This document shows positions 5,418 to 40,767 of a stretch of 40,767 nt of DNA, piece after piece. The DNA is taken from positions 1-40,767 of IMG/VR virus record IMGVR_UViG_3300025164_001366. One strand, written 5' to 3'. The position numbers were made by a program, and so were the translations under genes. Position 1 is the first letter of the stretch. Every line of letters starts with the position of its first letter. The notes beneath the pieces are model-generated. The model was given only the letters and a program-made list of their open reading frames with translations, had not been told where the DNA came from and did not search any database. The stretch comes from a virus.

Positions 5418-6101
5418 ATGAAAACAAATATTAATTTAATAAAATTATTTATAGACAGCGATATCATTAGACATTATGCTGTTTTTCTTAAATTAAAACA
5501 TATTCACTCTAATGGTAGAGTTTATAACTACTCACCCTATAAACTATCAAAACAAAGCGGATTAAGTAGAAATTCAATAATAAAATATATCAAATTCTTT
5601 AAAGATAATAACTGGATAAGAACCGAAGGGAAGGATATTATTTTCATTTCAACTGAAAAATTAAAAAAAGTTTATGATATCAAATTAAAACATGATATTA
5701 AAATAGAAAACAATAACACTTTATCTTTACTTACAAACTCTTTACGATATGAAGTATTAAAACATAAACAAAGTCAATTTAAGTACATTAATCAAATTAG
5801 GAAAGACCAAACTAATCCAACAGGAGCTAATGCTTTAAAACGCCATAAAAAAGCTATTAAAGTACCTCTGAAAACATTCGGTGAATTTTCTAATTATTTA
5901 AAAATTAGTGTAAAAAAATTGGCTTTGTTAATTAATAAATCAGGCTCAACAGTTAGTCGTTTGATTAAAATTATGAAAGCAACAGTAATCAGGGGCAAGA
6001 AAACTTTGGTATATTTTAAAAAGAATATAAATTTACCTTCAAATTTATACTGGCATAAAGGTTTTGTAGTTAAAGTTGATTGTAATTCATATATTTTTTA
6101 A
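5418..6101 (+). CDS. Winged-helix DNA-binding protein
   Basis: 227 aa, basic. An N-terminal helix-turn-helix is visible at about residues 40-75: YSPYKLSKQSGLSRNSIIKY followed by IKFFKDNNWIRTEGKDIIFIS, a typical winged-helix recognition helix and wing. A second HTH-like stretch is LKISVKKLALLINKSGSTVSR near residue 160. It resembles Bacteroidetes plasmid or phage replication/regulatory wHTH proteins but I cannot name a family. It is a lone plus-strand gene inserted between gp15-like and gp14-like genes, so it may be a recent insertion or a regulator with its own promoter. The 163 nt after it (6102-6264) hold no ORF or hairpin that I can support. Confidence 0.65.
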   Translation: MKTNINLIKLFIDSDIIRHYAVFLKLKHIHSNGRVYNYSPYKLSKQSGLSRNSIIKYIKFFKDNNWIRTEGKDIIFISTEKLKKVYDIKLKHDIKIENNNTLSLLTNSLRYEVLKHKQSQFKYINQIRKDQTNPTGANALKRHKKAIKVPLKTFGEFSNYLKISVKKLALLINKSGSTVSRLIKIMKATVIRGKKTLVYFKKNINLPSNLYWHKGFVVKVDCNSYIF

Positions 6102-6264
6102 CTATGTCTTTTTATGCATACTAATTAAATCCATACAGCTTATAGCTTTAACTATGGTTTTAGTAATTGGAATATTGGATTAGGTTAAATTTTAAACAAG
6201 AGTTGTAATAATAACGAATTTTATTTATAAACAGAAATTAAATATGTCATTATGTCAGAATTAA

Positions 6265-6804
6265 TTATTTTGCATTGAAAACATCATCCTTAACTCTAAT
6301 TCCTATTATTTTTATTGAAAACACTATATCTCCAGCATAAGATTGTTCGTTTCCAATGTTTGAAGAGCCATCATCTATTATTTCGTAAAAATGTCCTTTA
6401 AAGTACATAAAATCTCCTATTTTTGGATTTGCATTTAATTCATTTAAATGACTTCTATAAACATCGGCAGTAATTTTTCCATAACCTTTTTTAATTAGTC
6501 CACCTGAAGCCATATATTCTGGAGATTCAACTTCTACGTTAATTCTACCGAATACTTCAATCGGAGTTTTATAAGCTTTCTTTTTAGCTTCTCCATAAAG
6601 TTTATGTGTGTTTGTTTTAGCATAATCTATTTTATAAAGAACAAAACTTTCCTTAATAATATCATTTACCAATTCTCTTCCTACAGTATCAAAGAATTCC
6701 CTTTCTTTTTCTCCAAAGAATAAATCAATACCTTTCCTTGAAACATCTTGTTCTTTTGCTTCTTCAGGTTTTTTATCACCATCATTGTAAGGAGGATTTG
6801 CCAT
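6265..6804 (-). CDS. Neck / head-completion protein (T4 gp14-like)
   Basis: 179 aa. The middle and C-terminal pattern fits T4-like gp14 neck proteins: KLYGEAKKKAYKTPIEVFG, then a domain ending NPKIGDFMYFKGHFYEIID (compare 'GDLIYFP...LFEI' in T4), followed by SYAGDIVFSIKIIGIRV. It is shorter than T4 gp14 (256 aa). The N-terminus is Pro/Lys-rich and probably disordered. Its gene lies immediately downstream of the gp13-like gene with a 17-nt gap, the same order as T4 genes 13 and 14. It should act at the head-tail joint. Some other head-closure protein is the main alternative. Confidence 0.6.
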   Translation of the reverse strand: MANPPYNDGDKKPEEAKEQDVSRKGIDLFFGEKEREFFDTVGRELVNDIIKESFVLYKIDYAKTNTHKLYGEAKKKAYKTPIEVFGRINVEVESPEYMASGGLIKKGYGKITADVYRSHLNELNANPKIGDFMYFKGHFYEIIDDGSSNIGNEQSYAGDIVFSIKIIGIRVKDDVFNAK

Positions 6805-26070: not shown

Positions 26071-26727
26071 TTATTTTGTCCAAAATTTTTGTCCGAAAAT
26101 GTCAGATAATTTTTTATTTTTTATAAAATTTGAAGCAGACTCTACGTCTTCAGCTCTTAATGTTTTAAAACTATTATTAGTAATTTTTTTCAATCCTATC
26201 TTTTCTACACCTTCTTTGAACATATATGCTCCAGGTGTTGATGGCGATGAAACAAAATCAAAAGCAATTAATTCAAAATCTTCTTGAACAACGTCATCGC
26301 CTTGATGACTTTTTACAGAACCAACTCCTCTTGATGAGATACCAAGCATAACTCCGCTTCTTAATAAACCTTTTAAAATATTTCCAGAAGGAGTATCTAT
26401 AATTTCTACTTCTCCATATAAAGTTTCTCCCTCCCACCATATTTTTGTAACTAAGTGAGAAACATTAGATAATGAAACAACTGCTGAATCTGGATGATCT
26501 AATTCTCCAAGCGCTCTTCTTTCTTTTACAAGTTGATTATATTTATCAGCTTCTCTTTTAAGAATTTCTAATGGATATTTTCTTCCGTTTTTATTGGTGG
26601 TATTTCCTTTTTGAAGTATGCCCTTTAAAACAATAGGCATATGCTTATCTTCTGCTTCTCTTATTAAAGAAGCATCCGGATTGAAAGCATAAAATTCACT
26701 TATAATATATTTACCTTCGTTTGACAT
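26071..26727 (-). CDS. Prohead core maturation protease (T4 gp21-like)
   Basis: 219 aa from the ATG at 26727; a longer reading to 26772 would run into a terminator hairpin. The catalytic His lies in RRALGELDHPD (H78), the catalytic Ser in GVMLGISSRGVGSV (about S131-S132), and GRKYPLEILKREA is the conserved N-terminal helix. A C-terminal VQEDFELIAFDFVSSPSTPGA block is typical of gp21/S77 proteases. It cleaves core and capsid precursors during head maturation. It precedes the core and capsid genes, as in T4. It has a CTATTTAGA element 14-22 nt upstream (26741-26749). Confidence 0.94.
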   Translation of the reverse strand: MSNEGKYIISEFYAFNPDASLIREAEDKHMPIVLKGILQKGNTTNKNGRKYPLEILKREADKYNQLVKERRALGELDHPDSAVVSLSNVSHLVTKIWWEGETLYGEVEIIDTPSGNILKGLLRSGVMLGISSRGVGSVKSHQGDDVVQEDFELIAFDFVSSPSTPGAYMFKEGVEKIGLKKITNNSFKTLRAEDVESASNFIKNKKLSDIFGQKFWTK

Positions 26728-28667: not shown

Positions 28668-28700
28668 TTGCTATAAATATGAATTGTTTTATTATATTTG
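28667..28700 (+). promoter_or_regulatory. Bacteroidetes-type promoter of the dnaE operon
   Basis: TTTG at 28667-28670, 22-nt spacer, TATATTTG at 28693-28700. It fixes the dnaE start at 28717: the upstream in-frame ATG at 28684 would lie within the promoter. It overlaps the start of the divergent gene. Confidence 0.78.
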
Positions 28701-28716
28701 TAAAAAACAAAATATA

Positions 28717-30201
28717 ATGGAAAGATGTAGTTGTAAAAATGATGGATGTTTACATAGAAAACCTATGGTACACTTGCATTTACATAGTTCGTATAGCTTA
28801 CTCGATGGTTCCGCGAAGATAGACGATTACGTAAGTTTAGCGAAGGATTACCATCATCCTGCTATAACTTTAATTGACCACGGTCATGCATCTGGTACAT
28901 TTGAATTTTATAATAAATGTAAAGCTGCTGGAATTAAGCCGATAATTGGAATGGAAGCTTATCTGAATGATGAAATGGATAAACATGAAGAAAAATCCTA
29001 TGAGGGGAAAGATACTCATCAATCAATTATTATAATGAATAAAGAAGGGTTTGTTAATTTAAATAAATTAACTTATCGTTCTTTCACAGAAGGGTATTAT
29101 CGTAGGGGCAGAATAACAACAGAATGGCTTATTGAGAATAAGTCCGGACTTTTGATTACGAGCAGTTGTATGGCCAGTAAAATGGCAAGGTTAATAGAAG
29201 AAGGCAAGGAACAAGAAGCAGAAGAAAGAATAAAACTTTTAATGCGAGAATTTGGAAACAATTTTGTGGCAGAATTACAATTTAATGAAATCCCTCAACA
29301 AAAAAAATATAATCATTTTATTTTAAGAATGATTAAAAAATATTCATTAACACCAATACTTACAGGTGATGTTCACTATTCGAGTCCTGAAAATAATCGT
29401 TTACAGGATGTGATTATTTCCATTAATCAACATAAGTCTGTAGATGACCCTACAGCATTTAAACTTCAAGCACGACATCTGTATTATTCTAATAGAGATG
29501 ATTTTTATAAAATGAATAAAGAATTTGGATATAATTATCCGGATAAATTTATTGAAGAATGTTTAGATAACACTTTAAAAGTTGCTGATAAATGTAATTT
29601 TGAGTTTGAAACGGATGTAGAGAAATTTCCAAAATACGAGCCAACACCGGATGTTATTGAGTATTTTAAAGAAACAGGAACTAAGGAAATAATAACAAAA
29701 CTTGCACATGCAAAATTAAAACAAAAATTAAACATTTATAAAAAAAATGGTTTAGTAAAAATTGATGATGAAGTTATTCAAAAATATAAGGACAGGCTTG
29801 ATTACGAACTAAAAGTAATTGACGATAAAAAAGTGTCTGATTATTTTATGGTTGTTTGGGAATTAATTAAGTTTTGTAAGGAAAATGATATAGCCACAGG
29901 ACCTGGAAGAGGATGTTTTTTGCCAGGAAGTAGAGTAAAAATGTCTAATGGATTATATTCTTCTATAGAAATAATAGATATAGGAGAAGAAGTGATAGAT
30001 GCTTATGGAAATAAGCAAACAGTAATAGATGTTTTGTCTTATGACATAGAAGAAGATATTGTTGAATTAGAATTTGAAAACAAAATAAAAATAAGATGCA
30101 CATTAGACCATGAGTTTCTAACAAGTAATAGAAGTTGGGTTAAAGCAAATGATTTAACTAATGAAGATGAAATTATGGAAGTAGATTATTTACCGACTTA
30201 G
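28717..30201 (+). CDS. dnaE: DNA polymerase III alpha subunit, N-terminal part fused to split-intein N half
   Basis: 494 aa. Residues 1-399 are the N-extein: a PHP domain (VHLHLHSSYSLLDG, LIDHGHASGTFEFYNKC, GIKPIIGMEAYL) and the beginning of the palm, up to ATGPGRG. Residue 400 starts the intein: CFLPGSRVKMSNGLYSS, block A with Cys1, then block B IRCTLDHEFLTS with the TxxH motif, ending EVDYLPT and a stop (95 intein residues, 29914-30198). The stop occurs where natural DnaE split inteins end (compare 'VDNLPN'). The insertion point is within the strictly conserved PGRG|SA motif of Pol III. The second half lies at 31285-33561. Splicing would give a 1122-residue polymerase, about normal for DnaE. 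Confidence 0.95.
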   Translation: MERCSCKNDGCLHRKPMVHLHLHSSYSLLDGSAKIDDYVSLAKDYHHPAITLIDHGHASGTFEFYNKCKAAGIKPIIGMEAYLNDEMDKHEEKSYEGKDTHQSIIIMNKEGFVNLNKLTYRSFTEGYYRRGRITTEWLIENKSGLLITSSCMASKMARLIEEGKEQEAEERIKLLMREFGNNFVAELQFNEIPQQKKYNHFILRMIKKYSLTPILTGDVHYSSPENNRLQDVIISINQHKSVDDPTAFKLQARHLYYSNRDDFYKMNKEFGYNYPDKFIEECLDNTLKVADKCNFEFETDVEKFPKYEPTPDVIEYFKETGTKEIITKLAHAKLKQKLNIYKKNGLVKIDDEVIQKYKDRLDYELKVIDDKKVSDYFMVVWELIKFCKENDIATGPGRGCFLPGSRVKMSNGLYSSIEIIDIGEEVIDAYGNKQTVIDVLSYDIEEDIVELEFENKIKIRCTLDHEFLTSNRSWVKANDLTNEDEIMEVDYLPT

Positions 30202-30245
30202 TCCAATAAGGATTTTTTTTGACTATTTACAGTAAATATAAAGTC

Positions 30246-31280
30246 ATGAAAAAAGAAATAACAAAAGAACAAAAAGAAATATTAAATGTCATTATTAATA
30301 AAAATGGATTTTTAACAAAAAATGAAATATTAAAATTTTCCAAAGAATTTAATATTAACTTAAAATTATTTAGAAAATTATTAAAAGAAAGTAAAATTCC
30401 ATTTAAAAATAGAGATTTAGAAAATTTATTAAATGCCTATGATATAAAGTCTATAAATAACAGAATAGAATTAAGTGATTTTATTGCTTTAGGAGAATGG
30501 AAAATAGAAGCGTTTAAAAGTTCCAAAATGAAAATAACTTTTTGTTGTGAAGCTTGTAATAAAAAAAGTGAATTAGCATGTAGAAATATTATAAAAAGAG
30601 ATTATTTTTCACTCGAACCAATTTGTAATAAATGCATAAATAAAAAAGTAACATCATCTCTTAATTGGTTAAAAAATACTTCTGTTGCACAAAAAATATG
30701 TAAAAATAGACCAGAATTCAAAGAAAATCAAAGCAAAAAAATGATAGAAGTTTGGAAAAAAGATGGTTATAAAGAAAATCAGAGTAATAAAATGTTGGAA
30801 AAATGGCAAGATGAAAATTATAGACAAAATATTTTGGATGCTGTTTTTGAAAAATATGGAGTTTATAGTGTTATGCAAAATGAAAAAATTTTTTCAAAAT
30901 CACAAAAAAATAGCTTTAAATTTAAAGAATATATAATGCCAAGTGGAAAAATTATAAAACTGCAAGGGTATGAAAATAAGGCTTTAGATATTTTATTAAA
31001 AGAATTTAAAGAAGAAGATTTGATAATTGGCAATAAAAACATACAAAATAAAATAGGAAAAATATTTTATACAGACATAGATAACATTGTAAGAAGATAT
31101 TTTCCAGATATATACATTATCTCAATAAATAAAATAATTGAAGTAAAATCCACTTGGATATATAATAAATGTAAAATTAATAACGATTTTAAGAAACAAG
31201 AATGTTTGGATAGAGGATTTAATTTTGATTTTATGATTTTCCTACACAAAATGACACTTGAATATGTAAAAACATTATAA
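30246..31280 (+). CDS. Free-standing PD-(D/E)XK homing endonuclease between split-intein halves
   Basis: 344 aa from the ATG at 30246. It has its own start and stop and is not in frame with either intein half. An N-terminal helical region is followed by zinc-like Cys pairs (CCEACNKK...CNKC), short repeats with AVFEKYGVYSVMQNEKIFSK as in the 463-1737 and 33566-35350 proteins, and a C-terminal nuclease core: KLQGYENKALDILLKEFKEE, then IDNIVRRYFPDIYIISINKI with IEVKSTWIYN (D, E-x-K). The arrangement matches the published 'fractured gene' design in which a homing endonuclease gene separates the two halves of a split intein. It ends 4 nt before the intein C half start. Function in intein mobility is inferred. 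Confidence 0.85.
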   Translation: MKKEITKEQKEILNVIINKNGFLTKNEILKFSKEFNINLKLFRKLLKESKIPFKNRDLENLLNAYDIKSINNRIELSDFIALGEWKIEAFKSSKMKITFCCEACNKKSELACRNIIKRDYFSLEPICNKCINKKVTSSLNWLKNTSVAQKICKNRPEFKENQSKKMIEVWKKDGYKENQSNKMLEKWQDENYRQNILDAVFEKYGVYSVMQNEKIFSKSQKNSFKFKEYIMPSGKIIKLQGYENKALDILLKEFKEEDLIIGNKNIQNKIGKIFYTDIDNIVRRYFPDIYIISINKIIEVKSTWIYNKCKINNDFKKQECLDRGFNFDFMIFLHKMTLEYVKTL

Positions 31281-31284
31281 TAAT

Positions 31285-33561
31285 ATGAAATTAAAATCAA
31301 AAAATATAATTAAATATAAAGGTAGAGTTCACGATTTAACAGTAGAAAATTCTCACTCTTACAATGTTGAAAGTTTAGGAGTTCATAATTCTGCATCTGG
31401 TTGTTTATTATCATACTGTCTTGATATAACAAAAATAGACCCTCTTCGTTTTGGTTTATATTTTGAAAGATTTTTAAACACAAAAAGGAAATCGATTCCT
31501 GATATCGATATCGATTTTGAAACAGGTTCAGATGCAAAAACATTACAATTTTTGTATGATAAATATGGAAAAGAAAGAGTTATACCGGTAATTACTTTTG
31601 GCACTTTTAATGAAAAAGGATGTATAAAAGATGTGGTTAAAGCTCTCGGAGGGGAATCTGGGTTTGAGTCAGATGTTTTTGCTGTAACAAGAGAAATGCC
31701 AACGAAACCGACTTGGGATATTTCTTTACAAGAATGGTTCGAAACATGGCCAAATGACCCACAGTGCTCAGAAAGAGTTAAAAACTGGTTAACTTCTCCA
31801 GATAATGCAGAAATATTAAGTATTACTCTAAAACTTCAAGGACAAATAAGGAATTTAGGAAAGCATGCTGCTGGTATTGTTATTACGCCCGGACCAGTTT
31901 GGGATTATATGCCAGTTAATATTTGTAAAGGTCAAATAGTTTCAGGTTATCAAGAATCTGGAAGTGGAAAGGATTTATCTTCTCTTGGTATTTTAAAATT
32001 AGACAGATTAAATTTAACTACTCTTAATGTTATAAAATCAGCAATAAAACTTGTAAAAGAAAACAAAGGAATAGACATACAGGAGCAAGTTGATTATGTG
32101 AATCTTGAAGACCCAAATCTTTTTATAGAACTTAGAATGGGTAATAATCAAGGGATTTTTCAATTTGAATCTGAGGGAATGAATGCTTTAATAAAAGGAA
32201 TTCAGATTGAAACATTTGAAGAATTAACAGCAGCAAATTCATTATATAGACCTGGAAGTCTTGGAATGGGAGCTCATATTGAATTTATACAAAATAAATT
32301 CAATCCAGAAAAAAAAACATATGTACATGAACTTTTAGCTCCATTATTAGAAGAAACTAATGGTGTACTAATTTATCAAGAACAACTAATGTTTATTGCT
32401 AAGGAAATTGGTGGAATGGATGAAGGAGATGGTGATAACTTAAGAAAATATATGGACTCAGCTAGTAAAATAATTGCAAAAAAATTACGTGGAGACATAT
32501 TAACAGAAGATGAATTAAAAAATAAAAATTATAAAAATTATATTGATTTGTGGAAAAAATTCATAGACGGAGCAAAAACAAAGGGTTTATCTGAAGAAGA
32601 AGTAACTAAAATAGAAGACTGGTTAATTAAATATTTGGGATATTCGTTCAATAAATCACATGCAACTTCATATAGCTACATAGCTATGCAAACCCTTTTT
32701 TTAAAACACTATTATCCGACTGAATTCTATACAGCACTTTTAAATCACCCTAAAAGTAATAGCGATAAAGAAAAAGAAAAACAATGGTTACAAGCTGCAC
32801 TTCTTTCTGCTATGTCTAAAGGGATTGAAATTGCCCCTCCTGTAAGAAAATCTAATTGGGAATGGACATCAATTGAAAATAAAAAAATTGCAATGGGATT
32901 TTCTGGAATAAATGGAATGGGAGATATTGCATTTAAAGAATTAAAAGCCAAAAATATAGGAACGTTAACGAGGGATGAGTTTTTCTCGGTACCTTTTAAA
33001 AAATTTAATAAAGGCAGTTTTGAAGCGTGTTTAAAAGCTGGACTATTTGATGATTGGTCACCATCCAGAGAGGAAATTATGGCATGGAGAACTGCGAAAG
33101 TAAAAAACGTTATGCAATTAGATATATTTGGAAATTTTGGAATGGATTCTGTTACTGTTTATAAGAAATTTAATAAAACTCCAGATGATATAAAGCAAAA
33201 AGAATTTTTAGAAGTTTGTAATCTTGATCTCGGTTTACTCAAAAAACTGCATGAACTCAGAGATGCTTTTGTTGAAGAATATGGAGTAGCGTTAGAGCCG
33301 GTAACAAATTTTGATAATCCTATTAATTATTATTATTTCTGTTTAAATAATGTAGAACAAAAATTAACTAAAACAGGAAGAAAAATGTATGTATTACACT
33401 TATCCGATGGGGCTACAGTTAAAAAAGTTATTATGTGGGATAATATGTATAAAAAACTTGAGTCAAAGCTTAAGAATAATAGTGTTTATGTGACTAAATT
33501 TAAAAAAGAAAAAGGATGGTTATCTTTTGATGGAAGTGCTGAATTTAGAAAAGTGTTTTAA
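31285..33561 (+). CDS. dnaE: DNA polymerase III alpha subunit, C-terminal part with split-intein C half
   Basis: 758 aa. Residues 1-35 are the intein C half: MKLKSKNIIKYKGRVHDLTV, block F ENSHSYNVESLG, ending VHN with the penultimate His and terminal Asn; the first C-extein residue is Ser. The C-extein continues SASGCLLSYCLDITKIDPLR and the catalytic palm IPDIDIDFETG (the DxD pair binding metal). Next come QIRNLGKHAAGIVITPGP, the conserved FQFESEGMNALI and ANSLYRPGSLGMG, and IYQEQLMFIAKEIGGMDEGD. A Pol III fingers/HhH region and a C-terminal OB-like part with VEQKLTKTGRKMYVLHLSDG follow. It acts only after trans-splicing with the 28717 product. Replicative polymerase of the phage. Confidence 0.95.
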   Translation: MKLKSKNIIKYKGRVHDLTVENSHSYNVESLGVHNSASGCLLSYCLDITKIDPLRFGLYFERFLNTKRKSIPDIDIDFETGSDAKTLQFLYDKYGKERVIPVITFGTFNEKGCIKDVVKALGGESGFESDVFAVTREMPTKPTWDISLQEWFETWPNDPQCSERVKNWLTSPDNAEILSITLKLQGQIRNLGKHAAGIVITPGPVWDYMPVNICKGQIVSGYQESGSGKDLSSLGILKLDRLNLTTLNVIKSAIKLVKENKGIDIQEQVDYVNLEDPNLFIELRMGNNQGIFQFESEGMNALIKGIQIETFEELTAANSLYRPGSLGMGAHIEFIQNKFNPEKKTYVHELLAPLLEETNGVLIYQEQLMFIAKEIGGMDEGDGDNLRKYMDSASKIIAKKLRGDILTEDELKNKNYKNYIDLWKKFIDGAKTKGLSEEEVTKIEDWLIKYLGYSFNKSHATSYSYIAMQTLFLKHYYPTEFYTALLNHPKSNSDKEKEKQWLQAALLSAMSKGIEIAPPVRKSNWEWTSIENKKIAMGFSGINGMGDIAFKELKAKNIGTLTRDEFFSVPFKKFNKGSFEACLKAGLFDDWSPSREEIMAWRTAKVKNVMQLDIFGNFGMDSVTVYKKFNKTPDDIKQKEFLEVCNLDLGLLKKLHELRDAFVEEYGVALEPVTNFDNPINYYYFCLNNVEQKLTKTGRKMYVLHLSDGATVKKVIMWDNMYKKLESKLKNNSVYVTKFKKEKGWLSFDGSAEFRKVF

Positions 33562-33565
33562 AATG

Positions 33566-35350
33566 TTACGATTTTACTTCCGAATTTTTATTTAATGTTT
33601 GTGCAATTGTTGTAACATATTCTAAGATTTTTATTTTTTTATCATCATCTATTATAATATCTATTTCCATACCACACTCTCTTACGGATTGCCATTTTGC
33701 TTCATTTTTCAGTCCTTTTTTAATATCTTTCCCTTTACTATCATATGTCCATACTGACTTTATTTCAATTATTCTTTCTTTAAACAAAAAATCAGAATAA
33801 TATGTAGTAATTTTATTTTCCCATTTATATTTGAAACTTGGACCTCTTTTAATTTCATTTAACAGTCCTGCATTTTCCATTAGTTCTAAAAAATATAATT
33901 CATATTTACCTTGATAATTTAAAGAGGTATCTTTGTATTTATACATTTTAAAGCCATTTTTCTGACTTCTCTCGAAAATATTTTGATTATGCATGACATT
34001 TTCTACTCCATATCTTTCTATGTTTGTTATTTTACTTTTATTATGCTTAACACAAGATGCGTCCGCACATTTTTTAGAACAATATATTCCAAGTTTTGAC
34101 GAATTTGACCAAGAAACTGGATTTTTTTCACATGTTAAACACTTAGGAAACTCTTTTATGTTTTTGGAAATTAATAAACTTCTGCCAACCATAGATATTT
34201 TATTTGGAAAATTTTTGGTCATTTCTAAAATTTTATCTTTTAAATCAAGACGGAATTTTTCTGTAAAAAAATTAAGAACATTTTCATGAATATGATTTTT
34301 GCCGTTAATAATAAAAGTGTTAATAAATAACTTAACTTCATCAAAAGTTTGAATTTTATAAGATATGGAATAAAATAATTTTATTATATCTATATCATAA
34401 TTATTGTGACCAAACATAAAGTTTTTACGATGTCGCAAAAAATTAAATTTAAATTCCGGGTTTTGTTTTTTGTATTTATTGAACTTTTTTTGAGAAAAAT
34501 TATATAATTTATTTTTTAAAATAATATCAACAATCTCTGAAATATTCATAATTTTAAATGATGATAATGTTTTTAATTTGGTTATATTTATTTTATTCTG
34601 CGTTTCTTTTAATTGTAAAACATTTTCAACTCCATATTTTTCAATACAGGTTTCTTTAGCCTGCTCTCTATTGTTGTAATTTTCATCTCCAAAATTTTCT
34701 AATTTTGTTTGTTTAACTTTATCTGCAAATCCAGGTATATGAGATATGTGATTAACTCCATATTTATTTATAATAGTTACTTTGCTTTTTTCTGTATTAG
34801 TATAATGTCCATTGTTATATAATTTTAGTTTAGTGTCAAACGTTTTTTGTGCCCTGCCATCAGAATTATAAGCACATTCCTTAGAACAGTATATTCCTAT
34901 CTTTGATTGAAAATAATATACTGGTTTAATTCCGCAATGCAAACATGTAGGAAATGTTTTTATATTTTGAATTATCATCGAACATCTTACAACATTAACA
35001 ATATCAGATGGATAATTATTTGTGAATTTAATTATTTGAGGTAAAATTTTTTCATTAATTTTTGAAATTAATGTTAACTTTTCGAAACTCACATCTCTTT
35101 TTTTGTTTGTTAAAAATTTTTTTATAAAAATCTGTAAATCTTCAAATGTTTCTAAAGAATAATTCAATGAATTTATAACATAAATATAATCATATGCACC
35201 ATGATTTTTAAAACAATTTAAGTCAATAAATATTTTTCTTAATGATTTATGAAATTCTTTATTAAGCAAAGTGTATTGTTTAACTTCTTTTTTATTTAAT
35301 TTATCTAAATTTTCTATTGATATTTTTTGTGCTAATTCCTGTATGTCCAT
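33566..35350 (-). CDS. Large PD-(D/E)XK homing endonuclease with duplicated zinc modules
   Basis: 594 aa. The protein has two repeats of the same unit. Each holds a helical region and a zinc module, TFPTCLHCGIKPVYYFQSKI-GIYCSKECA and EFPKCLTCEKNPVSWSNSSK-LGIYCSKKCA, and each is followed by KYGV-type repeats (EKYGVENVLQLKETQ, ERYGVENVMHNQNIFERSQ). The C-terminal nuclease domain is close to that at 463-1737: LNYQGKYELYFLELMENAGL, TYYSDFLFKERIIEIKSVWT, then NEAKWQSVREC. It converges on dnaE with only 4 nt between the stop codons, a typical homing position beside a conserved gene. Confidence 0.82.
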   Translation of the reverse strand: MDIQELAQKISIENLDKLNKKEVKQYTLLNKEFHKSLRKIFIDLNCFKNHGAYDYIYVINSLNYSLETFEDLQIFIKKFLTNKKRDVSFEKLTLISKINEKILPQIIKFTNNYPSDIVNVVRCSMIIQNIKTFPTCLHCGIKPVYYFQSKIGIYCSKECAYNSDGRAQKTFDTKLKLYNNGHYTNTEKSKVTIINKYGVNHISHIPGFADKVKQTKLENFGDENYNNREQAKETCIEKYGVENVLQLKETQNKINITKLKTLSSFKIMNISEIVDIILKNKLYNFSQKKFNKYKKQNPEFKFNFLRHRKNFMFGHNNYDIDIIKLFYSISYKIQTFDEVKLFINTFIINGKNHIHENVLNFFTEKFRLDLKDKILEMTKNFPNKISMVGRSLLISKNIKEFPKCLTCEKNPVSWSNSSKLGIYCSKKCADASCVKHNKSKITNIERYGVENVMHNQNIFERSQKNGFKMYKYKDTSLNYQGKYELYFLELMENAGLLNEIKRGPSFKYKWENKITTYYSDFLFKERIIEIKSVWTYDSKGKDIKKGLKNEAKWQSVRECGMEIDIIIDDDKKIKILEYVTTIAQTLNKNSEVKS

Positions 35351-35364
35351 TCTGTGTTTTGAGT

Positions 35365-35529
35365 TTAAATTATTTCCTTATCAATGGTATCTAAAATAAA
35401 ATCTCTTATGTGTTTTGAAAACTTAATTTTGTTTTTTTTACAAATGTTAAAATAATCATTTTTAATTGTTTCTTCCAGTCGTATCTGAATGTGTTTGTTT
35501 CTTGTTATTTTTTGTTTTTGTCGTCCCAT
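35365..35529 (-). CDS. Small ribbon-helix-helix DNA-binding protein
   Basis: 54 aa from the ATG at 35529; the ATG at 35553 lies only 3 nt after the -7 promoter element. The pattern QIRLEETIKNDYFNICKKNK with IKFSKHIRDFILDTIDKEI is strand-helix-helix, as in Arc/MetJ-type or plasmid copy-control regulators. Likely a homodimeric DNA-binding protein. It is preceded by its own Bacteroidetes-type promoter that overlaps a terminator palindrome, which could serve as operator, though that is only a suggestion. Confidence 0.68.
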   Translation of the reverse strand: MGRQKQKITRNKHIQIRLEETIKNDYFNICKKNKIKFSKHIRDFILDTIDKEII

Positions 35530-36323: not shown

Positions 36324-36647
36324 ATGGAAAAAGCTAAATTTATCTACAAAAAGGATGATGGAACTACATCAAACAGAGAAATCCTAAGACCGGTTTTCTT
36401 AAAAGAATCTTCGAATTCAATTAAAAATTATGATAAAGATGATGTTAAATACGTTCGCGGATTTGAATTAAATAGAGAAGGATTAAGCGAGTCTGAAATC
36501 GAAAAATATGAAGAAATGTTAGAAGATTATTACGACTTAGCAGTACCTACAATTCAAGAATTTTTTAAGGAACAAGGACTTGACGCTTCAAAATTGATGG
36601 AGAAATCCTTTAAAAAACAAAACATAAGTGAATTTAAGGTTTTATAA
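36324..36647 (+). CDS. Conserved phage hypothetical protein (107 aa)
   Basis: Begins MEKAKFIYKKDDGTTSNREI and ends KSFKKQNISEFKVL, a C-terminal pattern I recognise from other phage hypotheticals of unknown function. The N-terminal strand pair and R-residues resemble WYL-domain-like effector-binding proteins, but the rest is too short for a call. Coupled to the next gene by a one-base overlap (TAATG). Confidence 0.6.
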   Translation: MEKAKFIYKKDDGTTSNREILRPVFLKESSNSIKNYDKDDVKYVRGFELNREGLSESEIEKYEEMLEDYYDLAVPTIQEFFKEQGLDASKLMEKSFKKQNISEFKVL

Positions 36648-36994
36648 TGTTGGAACGATTTGTCATAACTGAATTTTTTAGACAACCCTATGAAGATTAT
36701 GGCCATACTAAAATTTGGTACCATAAAGATACTTGGAAAGAAAAACGAGTTATATTTTATGAAAAAGACGGAACTTTGGATAATTTTTTTGATAAAGACG
36801 GAAAGTTACACAGAGACAATGATCAACCAGCCACAATACATTCATCTGGCATTGAAGGATATTATTTTCATGGAAAAATTCACAGAGGTCACTTTAAGCC
36901 AGCCATAATTTATCCAAATGGAATAAAAGAATATTGGGTTTACGGCGAAAAAAGATTTGAAACTTTATCTTTAACAAAAAATGAGTTATTTTAA
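36647..36994 (+). CDS. MORN-like repeat protein (115 aa)
   Basis: Two clear repeats of the type 'DG.LHR....PA.I...G...Y...G': KDGKLHRDNDQPATIHSSGI with EGYYFHGKIHRGHFKPAIIY, and a third partial copy in PNGIKEYWVYGEKR. MORN-like repeats of this sort occur in viral and phage proteins; the function is unknown. Its stop codon (36992-36994) overlaps the first unit of the CRISPR-like array by one base. Confidence 0.65.
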   Translation: MLERFVITEFFRQPYEDYGHTKIWYHKDTWKEKRVIFYEKDGTLDNFFDKDGKLHRDNDQPATIHSSGIEGYYFHGKIHRGHFKPAIIYPNGIKEYWVYGEKRFETLSLTKNELF

Positions 36995-37297
36995 GTTTAT
37001 AACCGTTGTATTTTAGACCCTCTTCAAGGGACGTTCACACTGAAAGAATATCTTGATGCTGGTTTTATAACCGTTAGATTTTAGACCCTCTTCAAGGCAG
37101 TTCATTTTCCGCATGCGTGAATTTGAACGTTTTATAACCGTTAGATTTTAGACCCTCTTCAAGGATTGCAATTAAGCATTCTATATAGGGTTGAGTTTTA
37201 TAACCGTTAGATTTTAGACCCTCTTCAAGGTTGATAAGGGGTATGTTCGAATTGTTGGAAAGTTTTATAACCGTTAGATTTTAGACCCTCTTCAAGG
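36994..37297 (-). CRISPR. CRISPR-like array 1: five 36-nt repeats, four spacers
   Basis: Repeats at 36994-37029, 37062-37097, 37129-37164, 37195-37230 and 37262-37297. Copies 2-5 are identical on the plus strand (start GTTTTATAACCG, end GACCCTCTTCAAGG). Copy 1 is degenerate (AG for GT at positions 1-2, GT for AG at 15-16), as in terminal repeats. Spacers are 32, 31, 30 and 31 nt, all different and richer in G+C than the surroundings. Read on the minus strand each repeat ends in ...TATAAAAC. Copy 5 lies within the 3' coding end of the gene at 37225-37659, in frame, so that gene's side is the inferred leader end. No cas gene is visible in the window. The strand given is the inferred transcription direction. 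Confidence 0.88.
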
Positions 37298-37659
37298 GTA
37301 ATCTGTGTAAATGACTGAATCTCATTATGTTGGAGCATGTATCGGCTCTCAAAAACTGACCAAAAGTCGGTATATTTTATGTAAAACGCCTTGTTTTTTT
37401 CATATTTTTCCACTAAAATCTCTTTATTTTTGACGTAAAAAACGGAATCCGGATGCTTCGAGTTTAAATATATCTCACATCCATCAATCTTAGAAATAAA
37501 GAAATTCCGCATTTCTATTTCTTTCGATTTTTGAGGAGAAAACTTTTCAACCAATACTTTCCTCGTCAAAAATGAACATAAGTCCAATTTTATACCAAGG
37601 TTTGTCCATGGTGTATCACTAACTTTTTCTCGATTTTCTCTTAATTTTGATTGACTCAT
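37225..37659 (-). CDS. Hypothetical protein whose 3' coding end is the CRISPR-like repeat
   Basis: 144 aa, charged. Begins MSQSKLRENREKVSDTPWTN and contains FLTRKVLVEKFSP, plus a second copy EILVEKYEK, of the LVEK motif. The conserved C-terminal part reads WSVFESRYMLQHNEIQSFTQ. The repeat then encodes LEEGLKSNGYKT (37262-37297), spacer 4 encodes the tail FQQFEHTPYQ, and the TGA lies in repeat 4. The paralogue at 40632-40767 has the same structure: repeat-encoded LLDSLNSKGYKT and a spacer-encoded tail. The gene reads from its start towards the array, so its transcript would run into the repeats. The family is not recognised; it is not a known Cas protein as far as I can tell. Confidence 0.7.
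   Translation of the reverse strand: MSQSKLRENREKVSDTPWTNLGIKLDLCSFLTRKVLVEKFSPQKSKEIEMRNFFISKIDGCEIYLNSKHPDSVFYVKNKEILVEKYEKNKAFYIKYTDFWSVFESRYMLQHNEIQSFTQITLEEGLKSNGYKTFQQFEHTPYQP
37312..37360 (-). promoter_or_regulatory. Leader-like conserved block next to array 1
   Basis: 49 nt that are 47/49 identical to 40719-40767 next to array 2 (e.g. GGAGCATGTATCGGCTCTCA). The two differences change amino acids (QHNE versus QYDE) and there are no silent changes, so the DNA itself appears conserved. It lies 14 nt from repeat 5, inside the coding sequence. A CRISPR leader role is inferred. Confidence 0.55.
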
Positions 37660-39609: not shown

Positions 39610-40530
39610 ATGAAACCTACACCTGAACTATTAAAAGTCCCATTTGATGAGATTTATCTACCATCGATGGGACTTTTTTACAAAGATGGAACATCGCATA
39701 TACAAGTAAGAGCTCTTACTGGTTATGATGAGATTTTATTGTCTTCTCCATATTTAGCACAAAGAGGTAATGCTATAAAAATTTTAATGAATAATGTTAT
39801 TCTAAATTCCGATTTGGAATATGAAGAACTCTTAGTGTGTGATAGGGATGCTATTTTATTATTTCTTAGGTCTGTTACTTTTGGTGATGAAATTGAAATG
39901 GAGTTTGTTTGTCCGGAATGTGAAACAAAATCAAAAGGTCAATTTAAAATTTCCAAAATAGAAGCGAAGGAAATAAATGTTCCTCCAAATGAAAATGGAG
40001 AATTTGAGTACATAGTTCCAAGCAGTTTGTTTTTAGAAAATCCAATTCAGATAAATTTTGAACCATTAAGAGTTTATAAATCACATCTCATGAAAAATAA
40101 ACAACTCATGAGTAGATACTTAACTCAAATAACTTCCATTAATGATAAAACAGATAAACAATATATTATCAATTATCTAAAATCTATGAAAATTAAAGAT
40201 TCTAAGTCTTTAAGAGAATTCATGGATAAAGTTGAACCGGGATTTGAAGAGACAATAATGCATACTTGCCCGTCTTGTGATTATAAATTAAAAGATATTG
40301 TTAAAATAGATGAAGAATTTTTATCTCTTCCAGAAACTCACAGAAACACCGTGAATGAAGAATGTTTTTTGGCTTATTATTATGGTAAAGGAATAACAAG
40401 AAATCAGGCTTATGAAATGACTACAGTTGATAGAAGATGGACAATAAATAGAATATCTGAAGAAATAGAAAAACAGAATAAAGCAGAAAAGGATGCTGCA
40501 AATAAATCTAAAAATAGTAGTAAAAGGTAA
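39610..40530 (+). CDS. Baseplate hub protein, T4 gp26/PF12322-like (paralogue 2)
   Basis: 306 aa. Same plan as the preceding protein: IYLPSMGLFYKDGTSHIQVR, ALTGYDEILLSSPYLAQRGN, VCDRDAILLFLRSVTFGDEI, Cys pairs VCPECETKS and TCPSCDYKL, and SLREFMDKVEPGFEETIMH. It has a C-terminal extension of about 60 residues with AYYYGKGITRNQAYEMTTVD-RRWTINRISEEIEKQNKAE, typical of tail-assembly-chaperone-like ends. It arose by tandem duplication of the neighbour and has diverged. The stop codon lies 7 nt before array 2. Confidence 0.68.
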   Translation: MKPTPELLKVPFDEIYLPSMGLFYKDGTSHIQVRALTGYDEILLSSPYLAQRGNAIKILMNNVILNSDLEYEELLVCDRDAILLFLRSVTFGDEIEMEFVCPECETKSKGQFKISKIEAKEINVPPNENGEFEYIVPSSLFLENPIQINFEPLRVYKSHLMKNKQLMSRYLTQITSINDKTDKQYIINYLKSMKIKDSKSLREFMDKVEPGFEETIMHTCPSCDYKLKDIVKIDEEFLSLPETHRNTVNEECFLAYYYGKGITRNQAYEMTTVDRRWTINRISEEIEKQNKAEKDAANKSKNSSKR

Positions 40531-40537
40531 TTTTTAA

Positions 40538-40704
40538 GTTTTATACCCTTTAGAATTTAAACTGTCTAAAAGTCAACCTTATGTATTCCATCCACATTTA
40601 TCCGTTTTATACCCTTTAGAATTTAAACTGTCTAAAAGGGTCCCCAATTATGAAAAAAATACCCAATTGTTTTATACCCTTTAGAATTTAAACTGTCTAA
40701 AAGG
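40538..40704 (-). CRISPR. CRISPR-like array 2: three 36-nt repeats, two spacers
   Basis: Repeats at 40538-40573, 40604-40639 and 40669-40704 (start GTTTTATACCCTTTAG, end CTGTCTAAAAG plus one more base; T instead of G in the first copy). Spacers are 30 and 29 nt. The repeat matches array 1 at 28 of 36 positions. On the minus strand CCTTTTAGA can pair with TCTAAAGGG (9 bp, one G-U) around a 10-nt loop, as in CRISPR repeats. The third copy is in frame with the 3' coding end of a paralogue of the 37225 gene. The array fills the gap between the stop of the 39610 gene and that paralogue. Confidence 0.82.
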
Positions 40705-40767
40705 TATCCTTGCGTAAGTGACTGAATCTCATCATATTGGAGCATGTATCGGCTCTCAAAAACTGAC
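40632..40767 (-). CDS. Paralogue of the 37225 gene, C-terminal part (5' end outside window)
   Basis: The frame enters from the right edge and reads SVFESRYMLQYDEIQSLTQ, then the repeat-encoded YLLDSLNSKGYKT, then the spacer-encoded IGYFFHNWGPF, with TAG at 40634-40632 in repeat 2. The matching part of the 37225 protein reads SVFESRYMLQHNEIQSFTQ. Only 45 codons are visible. Confidence 0.7.
   Translation of the reverse strand, partial: SVFESRYMLQYDEIQSLTQGYLLDSLNSKGYKTIGYFFHNWGPF

Follow-up and report, generated by a model that had tools for sequence, protein, structure and literature searches.

Can a CRISPR-like array arise within the end of a protein-coding gene? The question is raised by two short arrays of 36-nt repeats in an IMG/VR virus record, a 40,767-bp contig that was analysed over its whole length (hereafter, the window). 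A sequence-only reading had proposed that the repeats, the DNA beside them, and the coding end of the adjoining genes form a system rather than an accident, and that the flanking DNA is conserved as a leader. We searched for relatives of these loci in other phages and used them to assess both proposals, together with the nature of the arrays.

Two arrays at the ends of paralogous genes

Array 1 (36994–37297) contains five repeats, four of them identical and one degenerate, and array 2 (40538–40704) contains three (Table 1). The two are in the same orientation, 3.3 kb apart. On one side of each array a plus-strand gene converges on it, and on the other a minus-strand gene extends into it. At array 1 this minus-strand gene, W1, has its stop codon at the start of repeat 2. 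Its paralogue at array 2, W2, is cut by the end of the contig. The peptides encoded by the first repeats, LEEGLKSNGYKT in array 1 and LLDSLNSKGYKT in array 2, are the C-terminal motifs of the two proteins. The phage also encodes T4-type capsid, sheath, baseplate, and prohead-protease proteins, DNA polymerase III alpha, and tRNAs. Its capsid protein finds its closest match in a 484-kb uncultured phage record (34% identity). The DNA polymerase III alpha gene (28684–33561) shows an apparent intein-like interruption with an embedded endonuclease-like ORF.

Table 1. Coordinates of the arrays and of their flanking genes in the window.
Feature	Position	Strand	Remarks
Convergent 115-aa gene	36647..36994	+	Stop codon abuts array 1
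Array 1, leader-distal repeat	36994..37029	-	Degenerate; differs from the other four copies, which are identical
Array 1, spacer-holding region	37030..37261	-	Four spacers of 33, 31, 30, and 31 nt
Array 1, repeat 4 (counted from the gene side)	37062..37097	-	Exact
Array 1, repeat 3	37129..37164	-	Exact
Array 1, repeat 2	37195..37230	-	Exact
Array gene W1	37225..37659	-	144 aa; 3' end includes flank and repeat 1; homologues in G003 and G006
Array 1, repeat 1	37262..37297	-	Encodes LEEGLKSNGYKT of W1
Leader-like stretch within W1	37298..37360	-	63 nt
Convergent T4-type baseplate gene	39610..40530	+	Ends 7 nt before array 2
Array 2, leader-distal repeat	40538..40573	-	Last base different
Array 2, spacer 2	40574..40603	-	30 nt
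Array 2, repeat 2	40604..40639	-	
Array 2, spacer 1	40640..40668	-	29 nt
Array 2, repeat 1	40669..40704	-	Encodes LLDSLNSKGYKT
Paralogous array gene W2	40705..40767	-	3' end only (contig end); 53/63 identical to W1

The gene and its array recur in two other phages

We searched for relatives using patterns of the repeats, of the peptide, and of the spaced repeats. The degenerate repeat pattern retrieved G001, G003, and G004, which are contigs of one other phage (99.997% identical over their overlaps). Its array, which is the same in all three of these IMG/VR contigs, consists of four identical repeats, and its three spacers bear no relation to those of the window. A third phage is represented by G005 (19 kb) and G006 (212,632 bp), with one array identical in both contigs. 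Array A of this phage (G005/G006) has three repeats and a degenerate distal repeat close to the W1/G003 type. The patterns revealed no family members beyond these two sets of contigs in IMG/VR, GTDB genomes, and annotated phages, and neither bacterial genomes nor annotated phages yielded a homologue of the array gene. The combination of repeat, flank, and coding end is found in the window phage and in two others, which bears out the proposal that they form a system.

The array-gene protein is 66–80% identical between the phages, even if these share few other genes: BLASTP matched only 2 of the 49 window ORFs in G003 and 6 of the 49 in G006. This suggests that the module moved between phages or was kept far better than the rest of their genomes. 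A second small protein is 80% identical between G003 (31014–31301) and G006 (184398–184715), phages that otherwise share little.

G006 encodes nine members of the array-gene family. It carries the fresh arrays A, B, and C, and degenerate arrays, D and E, behind two further members. Array B (35256–35489; four identical repeats) and array C (31634–31921; four identical repeats and a degenerate one) each follow one family member. The repeats of B and C are alike at 31/36 positions, and those of B and C match those of A at only 20–22/36 (20/36 between A and B). In every array-bearing member the first repeat falls at the same place in the protein; the C-terminal motif there reads L-E-x-x-[LVI]-K-x-x-G-Y-[KT]-[TP] for most of them. 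Changes between the first repeats of B, C, and D are predominantly synonymous. G003 also encodes one diverged member of the family that lacks an array. The protein is predicted to form a small alpha/beta domain (a fair model, pLDDT 81), and structure searches found nothing similar, the PDB being searched only with a weaker, first model. Elsewhere in G006, the Pfam thiol-activated cytolysin family has a match in one ORF, which is unusual in a phage genome.

The three phages have another sequence trait in common. A short peptide, R-x-[VI]-[LIF]-x-E-[KR], usually with T, S, or C directly before it, occurs at 9 sites in the window (e.g., 14559, 16178, 37563, and 38241), 33 in G003, and 59 in G006, compared with 0–2 in four other phage contigs. 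Dozens of ORFs unrelated to one another carry it, whether at the N-terminus, in the middle, or at the C-terminus, and its codons vary synonymously. A role as a tag for processing or head targeting is possible; a T4-type prohead protease is encoded in the window.

Repeats, spacers, and polarity

CRISPR arrays have at least three near-identical direct repeats of about 23–50 nt, and the arrays of the window fall within this range in both number and length of repeats. Their spacers (29–33 nt) are of near-constant length and mutually unrelated, those of 30 nt sharing at most 14/30 ungapped positions. Those of array 1 match neither one another nor the related phages. In all fresh arrays the repeats are identical within the array and the spacers are unrelated. 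The arrays are also polarised: the gene-distal repeats are degenerate in W1, A, and C, while the gene-proximal ones are intact; the G003 and B arrays show no distal decay. As in virus-borne mini-CRISPR arrays, the same type of locus is found with different spacers in other viruses.

The composition of the spacers differs from that of the phages that carry them. Spacers of fresh arrays have 38.8% G+C, compared with 29.0% in random pieces of the home phages, and none of 5,000 draws was as high. Those of the degenerate array D have 31.7% G+C, as expected if old spacers drift. The identical repeats, the unrelated and frame-breaking spacers, the distal decay, and the spacer composition together do not fit tandem duplication. 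In G006, the two spacers of array B that start with TGTTGG, and the two of array D that start with TTCAGCT, exceed what is expected of independent spacers.

Probable gene conversion between paralogues and the leader question

The proposal of a conserved leader came from the comparison of the two arrays of the window. When recomputed, the repeats of array 2 again matched those of array 1 at 28/36 positions. The adjacent 49 nt are indeed identical at 47/49 positions (40719–40767 versus 37312–37360), and the two changes alter the protein (H to Y and N to D). The lack of silent changes, which had been taken as a sign of selection, holds for the 49 nt that had been chosen but not for the DNA next to them. 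The 14 nt between this flank and the repeat match at 6/14 positions, with silent changes ACA to ACG and CAG to CAA, and the first repeats of W1 and W2 differ by two further silent changes (CTA to TTA and GGT to GGG). The near-identity of the flank therefore stops short of the repeat.

The other phages speak against selection on the flank at the DNA level. Synonymous divergence (pS) is 0.13–0.79 near the array and 0.28–0.93 elsewhere in the gene, i.e., not clearly lower near the array. The comparison of W1 with G003 gives the reverse of the pattern between W1 and W2: the repeat is identical at 35/36 positions and the adjoining 14 nt at 14/14, while the next 49 nt match at only 37/49. On the synonymous-site counts and this inverse pattern, we rejected a leader selected at the DNA level. 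In G005/G006, identity between the paralogues A and A2 rises from approximately 80% in the initial ~115 nt to 100% in the final ~110 nt available. The switch sits in the middle of the gene, distant from any array, suggesting gene conversion between paralogues. Judging from these alignments, the near-identical flanks of W1 and W2 are best explained by such conversion, which would require no selection on a leader. Apparent conservation of a leader may thus reflect protein conservation plus gene conversion, and calls for caution.

Targets, Cas genes, and RNA features

The spacers had no matching protospacers in phage or plasmid records, in the fetched contigs, or in IMG/VR (scanned with two spacers). 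No Cas1 was found in the window, G001, or G003–G006, which are incomplete contigs. The window, G005, and G006 yielded no recognisable Cas effector among the matches listed (25 families per scan); the first 40 kb of G006 were screened only with Cas1 and zinc-ribbon models. No recognised effector is linked to these arrays, the one candidate, in G003, lying apart from its array. The W/G003/A-type repeat is absent from 84,980 species genomes, a set that may not include the phage host. We found no RNA hairpin conserved among the repeats and no evident tracrRNA-like anti-repeat in the contigs, and promoter-like sites were no commoner than in shuffled sequence. A scan of the window with Rfam matched only tRNAs, and the array regions were unmatched by its covariance models, including any for CRISPR direct repeats. 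At a relaxed threshold, the surroundings of array 1 gave nothing but a chance-level snoRNA match outside the array. The W2 repeat has a hairpin and a TATAAAAC end, which we took to resemble Cas13a repeats; this likeness was dropped since the hairpin is not common to W1, G003, A, B, and C. TIGR arrays were set aside as well, because their units presumably have a different layout.

Genes of type V or TnpB-like proteins were found in several of the contigs. The candidate in G003, seen in one phage only, is a Cas12f/TnpB-like protein of 405 aa. Copies of such a gene in G003 (1337–2551) and G004 (1–921, partial) are 86.7% identical; one of the copies lies beside an ISL3-type transposase gene and the other at the end of the G004 contig. 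In two unrelated phage contigs, G008 (827–2663) and G007 (~5951–6557), a short array (GTTTTATAACCTATAAAAATAACAAGGTTACAAAGG) lies directly beside a Cas12u3/Cas12f-like gene, making them candidates for a compact phage-carried type V locus. Their repeats start with GTTTTATAACC and have a period of 66. The 120-kb virus contig G009 has three separate short arrays with one repeat type (at 26207, 76937, and 90061), with a TnpB-like gene near 42 kb.

Alternative explanations

The arrays overlap coding sequence, and could be a protein tail of 22-residue units (12 fixed and 10 variable) in which foreign inserts diversify the C-terminus and no guide RNAs are made. The period is exactly 66 nt, with no break in the frame along arrays A and B; E, F, and H remain open for 65–78 codons beyond the first repeat (P 0.002–0.004 each in random sequence); and the first spacer is in frame and stop-free in W1, W2, G003, and A–E. 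The repeats of D also show an excess of synonymous differences (P 0.0024; P 0.017 for copies 2–4 alone). Yet those of E do not (P 0.18), the variable parts share no pattern, and the frame is lost at spacers of 29, 31, and 33 nt in W1, W2, G003, and C, beyond which the repeats are still identical. Moreover, old copies should show a synonymous excess just as well if the first repeat had always been coding and they were its fossils. We prefer these fossils to translated, used tails because the arrays that break the frame are equally well kept, and we regard a protein-diversifying role of the arrays as rather unlikely.

The lack of identified cas genes and protospacers would also suit decoys, i.e., mimics of CRISPR RNA that tie up host Cas proteins as a multi-unit RNA anti-CRISPR whose spacer content is irrelevant. 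Solitary repeat units are indeed known from phages, where they inhibit the Cas complexes of the host (PMC11656645), but the known cases are single repeats that match those of the host, whereas these arrays have several units with foreign-like spacers and a repeat that was not found in the 84,980 genomes. We think decoys improbable. We give as little credence to the idea that the arrays guide a compact type V or TnpB-like nuclease of the phage, such as the 405-aa protein of G003, in place of host Cas proteins. This protein does match the PADLOC Cas12f model (1.2e-107, residues 8–368), and the GTTTTATAACC repeats of G007 and G008 adjoin a Cas12u3/Cas12f-like gene. On the other hand, the generic TnpB model fits the G003 protein too, its gene lies ~70 kb from the array, a second, partial copy exists at the G004 contig end, and G006, the richest in arrays, has no such gene among the matches listed. 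Finally, an artefact of assembly or an ordinary tandem repeat is very improbable. The contig does end within a paralogous copy, and Tandem Repeats Finder calls array 1 as a 67-nt period with 71% matches, but the unrelated spacers imply that the 67-nt unit is no true tandem copy, and the finding of the same arrays, unchanged, in separate contigs of different sample origin shows that the arrays are not an effect of chance or of a single assembly.

A proposed model for gene-founded arrays

On balance, we lean towards reading these loci as cas-less, mini-CRISPR-like arrays of phages, carried in a mobile module of gene plus array, with the gene enclosing both the leader and the first repeat. The system is real and recurrent; how it acquires and uses its units, we infer as follows. 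The array would be read on the minus strand, from a leader and first repeat within the 3' end of the small protein gene. The array would grow on the side of the gene, each new unit being a copy of the first repeat together with an insert of ~30 nt of foreign origin. At the far end, the older repeats would either preserve what the first repeat used to be or decay. Transcription running on from the gene could yield guide RNAs against competing elements, with Cas proteins presumably supplied in trans by the host or by another phage gene. Several results count against this model: the searches described above returned no protospacer, Cas1, effector in G006, host-repeat match, or conserved hairpin; repeats within one genome differ at up to 16/36 positions, which is unusual for arrays sharing one Cas system; and some arrays remain open reading frames.

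A bolder version is possible but doubtful. The 3' coding end of the gene family would itself be the leader and seed repeat of an adaptive array, so that each paralogue founds an array with its own repeat, the arrays pass from one phage to unrelated others, and old ones end up as translated tails. The mechanism, of adaptation or of protein diversification, would be independent of a standard leader recognised by Cas1. In either version, these loci would mean that a protein gene can found a CRISPR-like array within itself, that several arrays with dissimilar repeats can coexist in one phage, and that gene-plus-array modules can travel among unrelated phages. In its coding first repeat, the array keeps a copy-by-copy record of its growth.

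Comparison with known systems

Virus-borne mini-CRISPR arrays are carried by the Sulfolobales viruses SPV1 and SPV2 (Medvedeva et al. 2019, PMC6858448). They resemble ours in being short and cas-less, in occupying the same position in related viruses with different spacers, and in having a leader beside the array. However, they are intergenic, match the repeats and leaders of the host, and have spacers that hit related viruses, whereas here leader and first repeat are coding and neither a host-repeat match nor a target was found. Huge phages encode compact arrays without adaptation genes and sometimes without interference genes (Al-Shayeb et al. 2020, PMC7162821). The likeness lies in the large phages and compact arrays, the window capsid being nearest to that of the 484-kb phage record; a family of paralogous genes that each end in their own array is not described in the parts of that study considered here. 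The type V-F/V-U loci of G007 and G008 are similar to the present arrays in having CRISPR-type repeats with a period of 66 in virus contigs, but they have an adjacent Cas12f/Cas12u3-like gene and no homologue of the array gene. RNA anti-CRISPRs, reviewed in PMC11656645, are likewise phage-borne CRISPR repeats without cas genes, but consist of a solitary repeat unit and not of several repeat-spacer units. False CRISPRs, i.e., tandem repeats inside protein genes that lack spacer diversity (PMC5294841), have the same repeat-spacer look overlapping a coding gene; in the arrays described here, every spacer differs.
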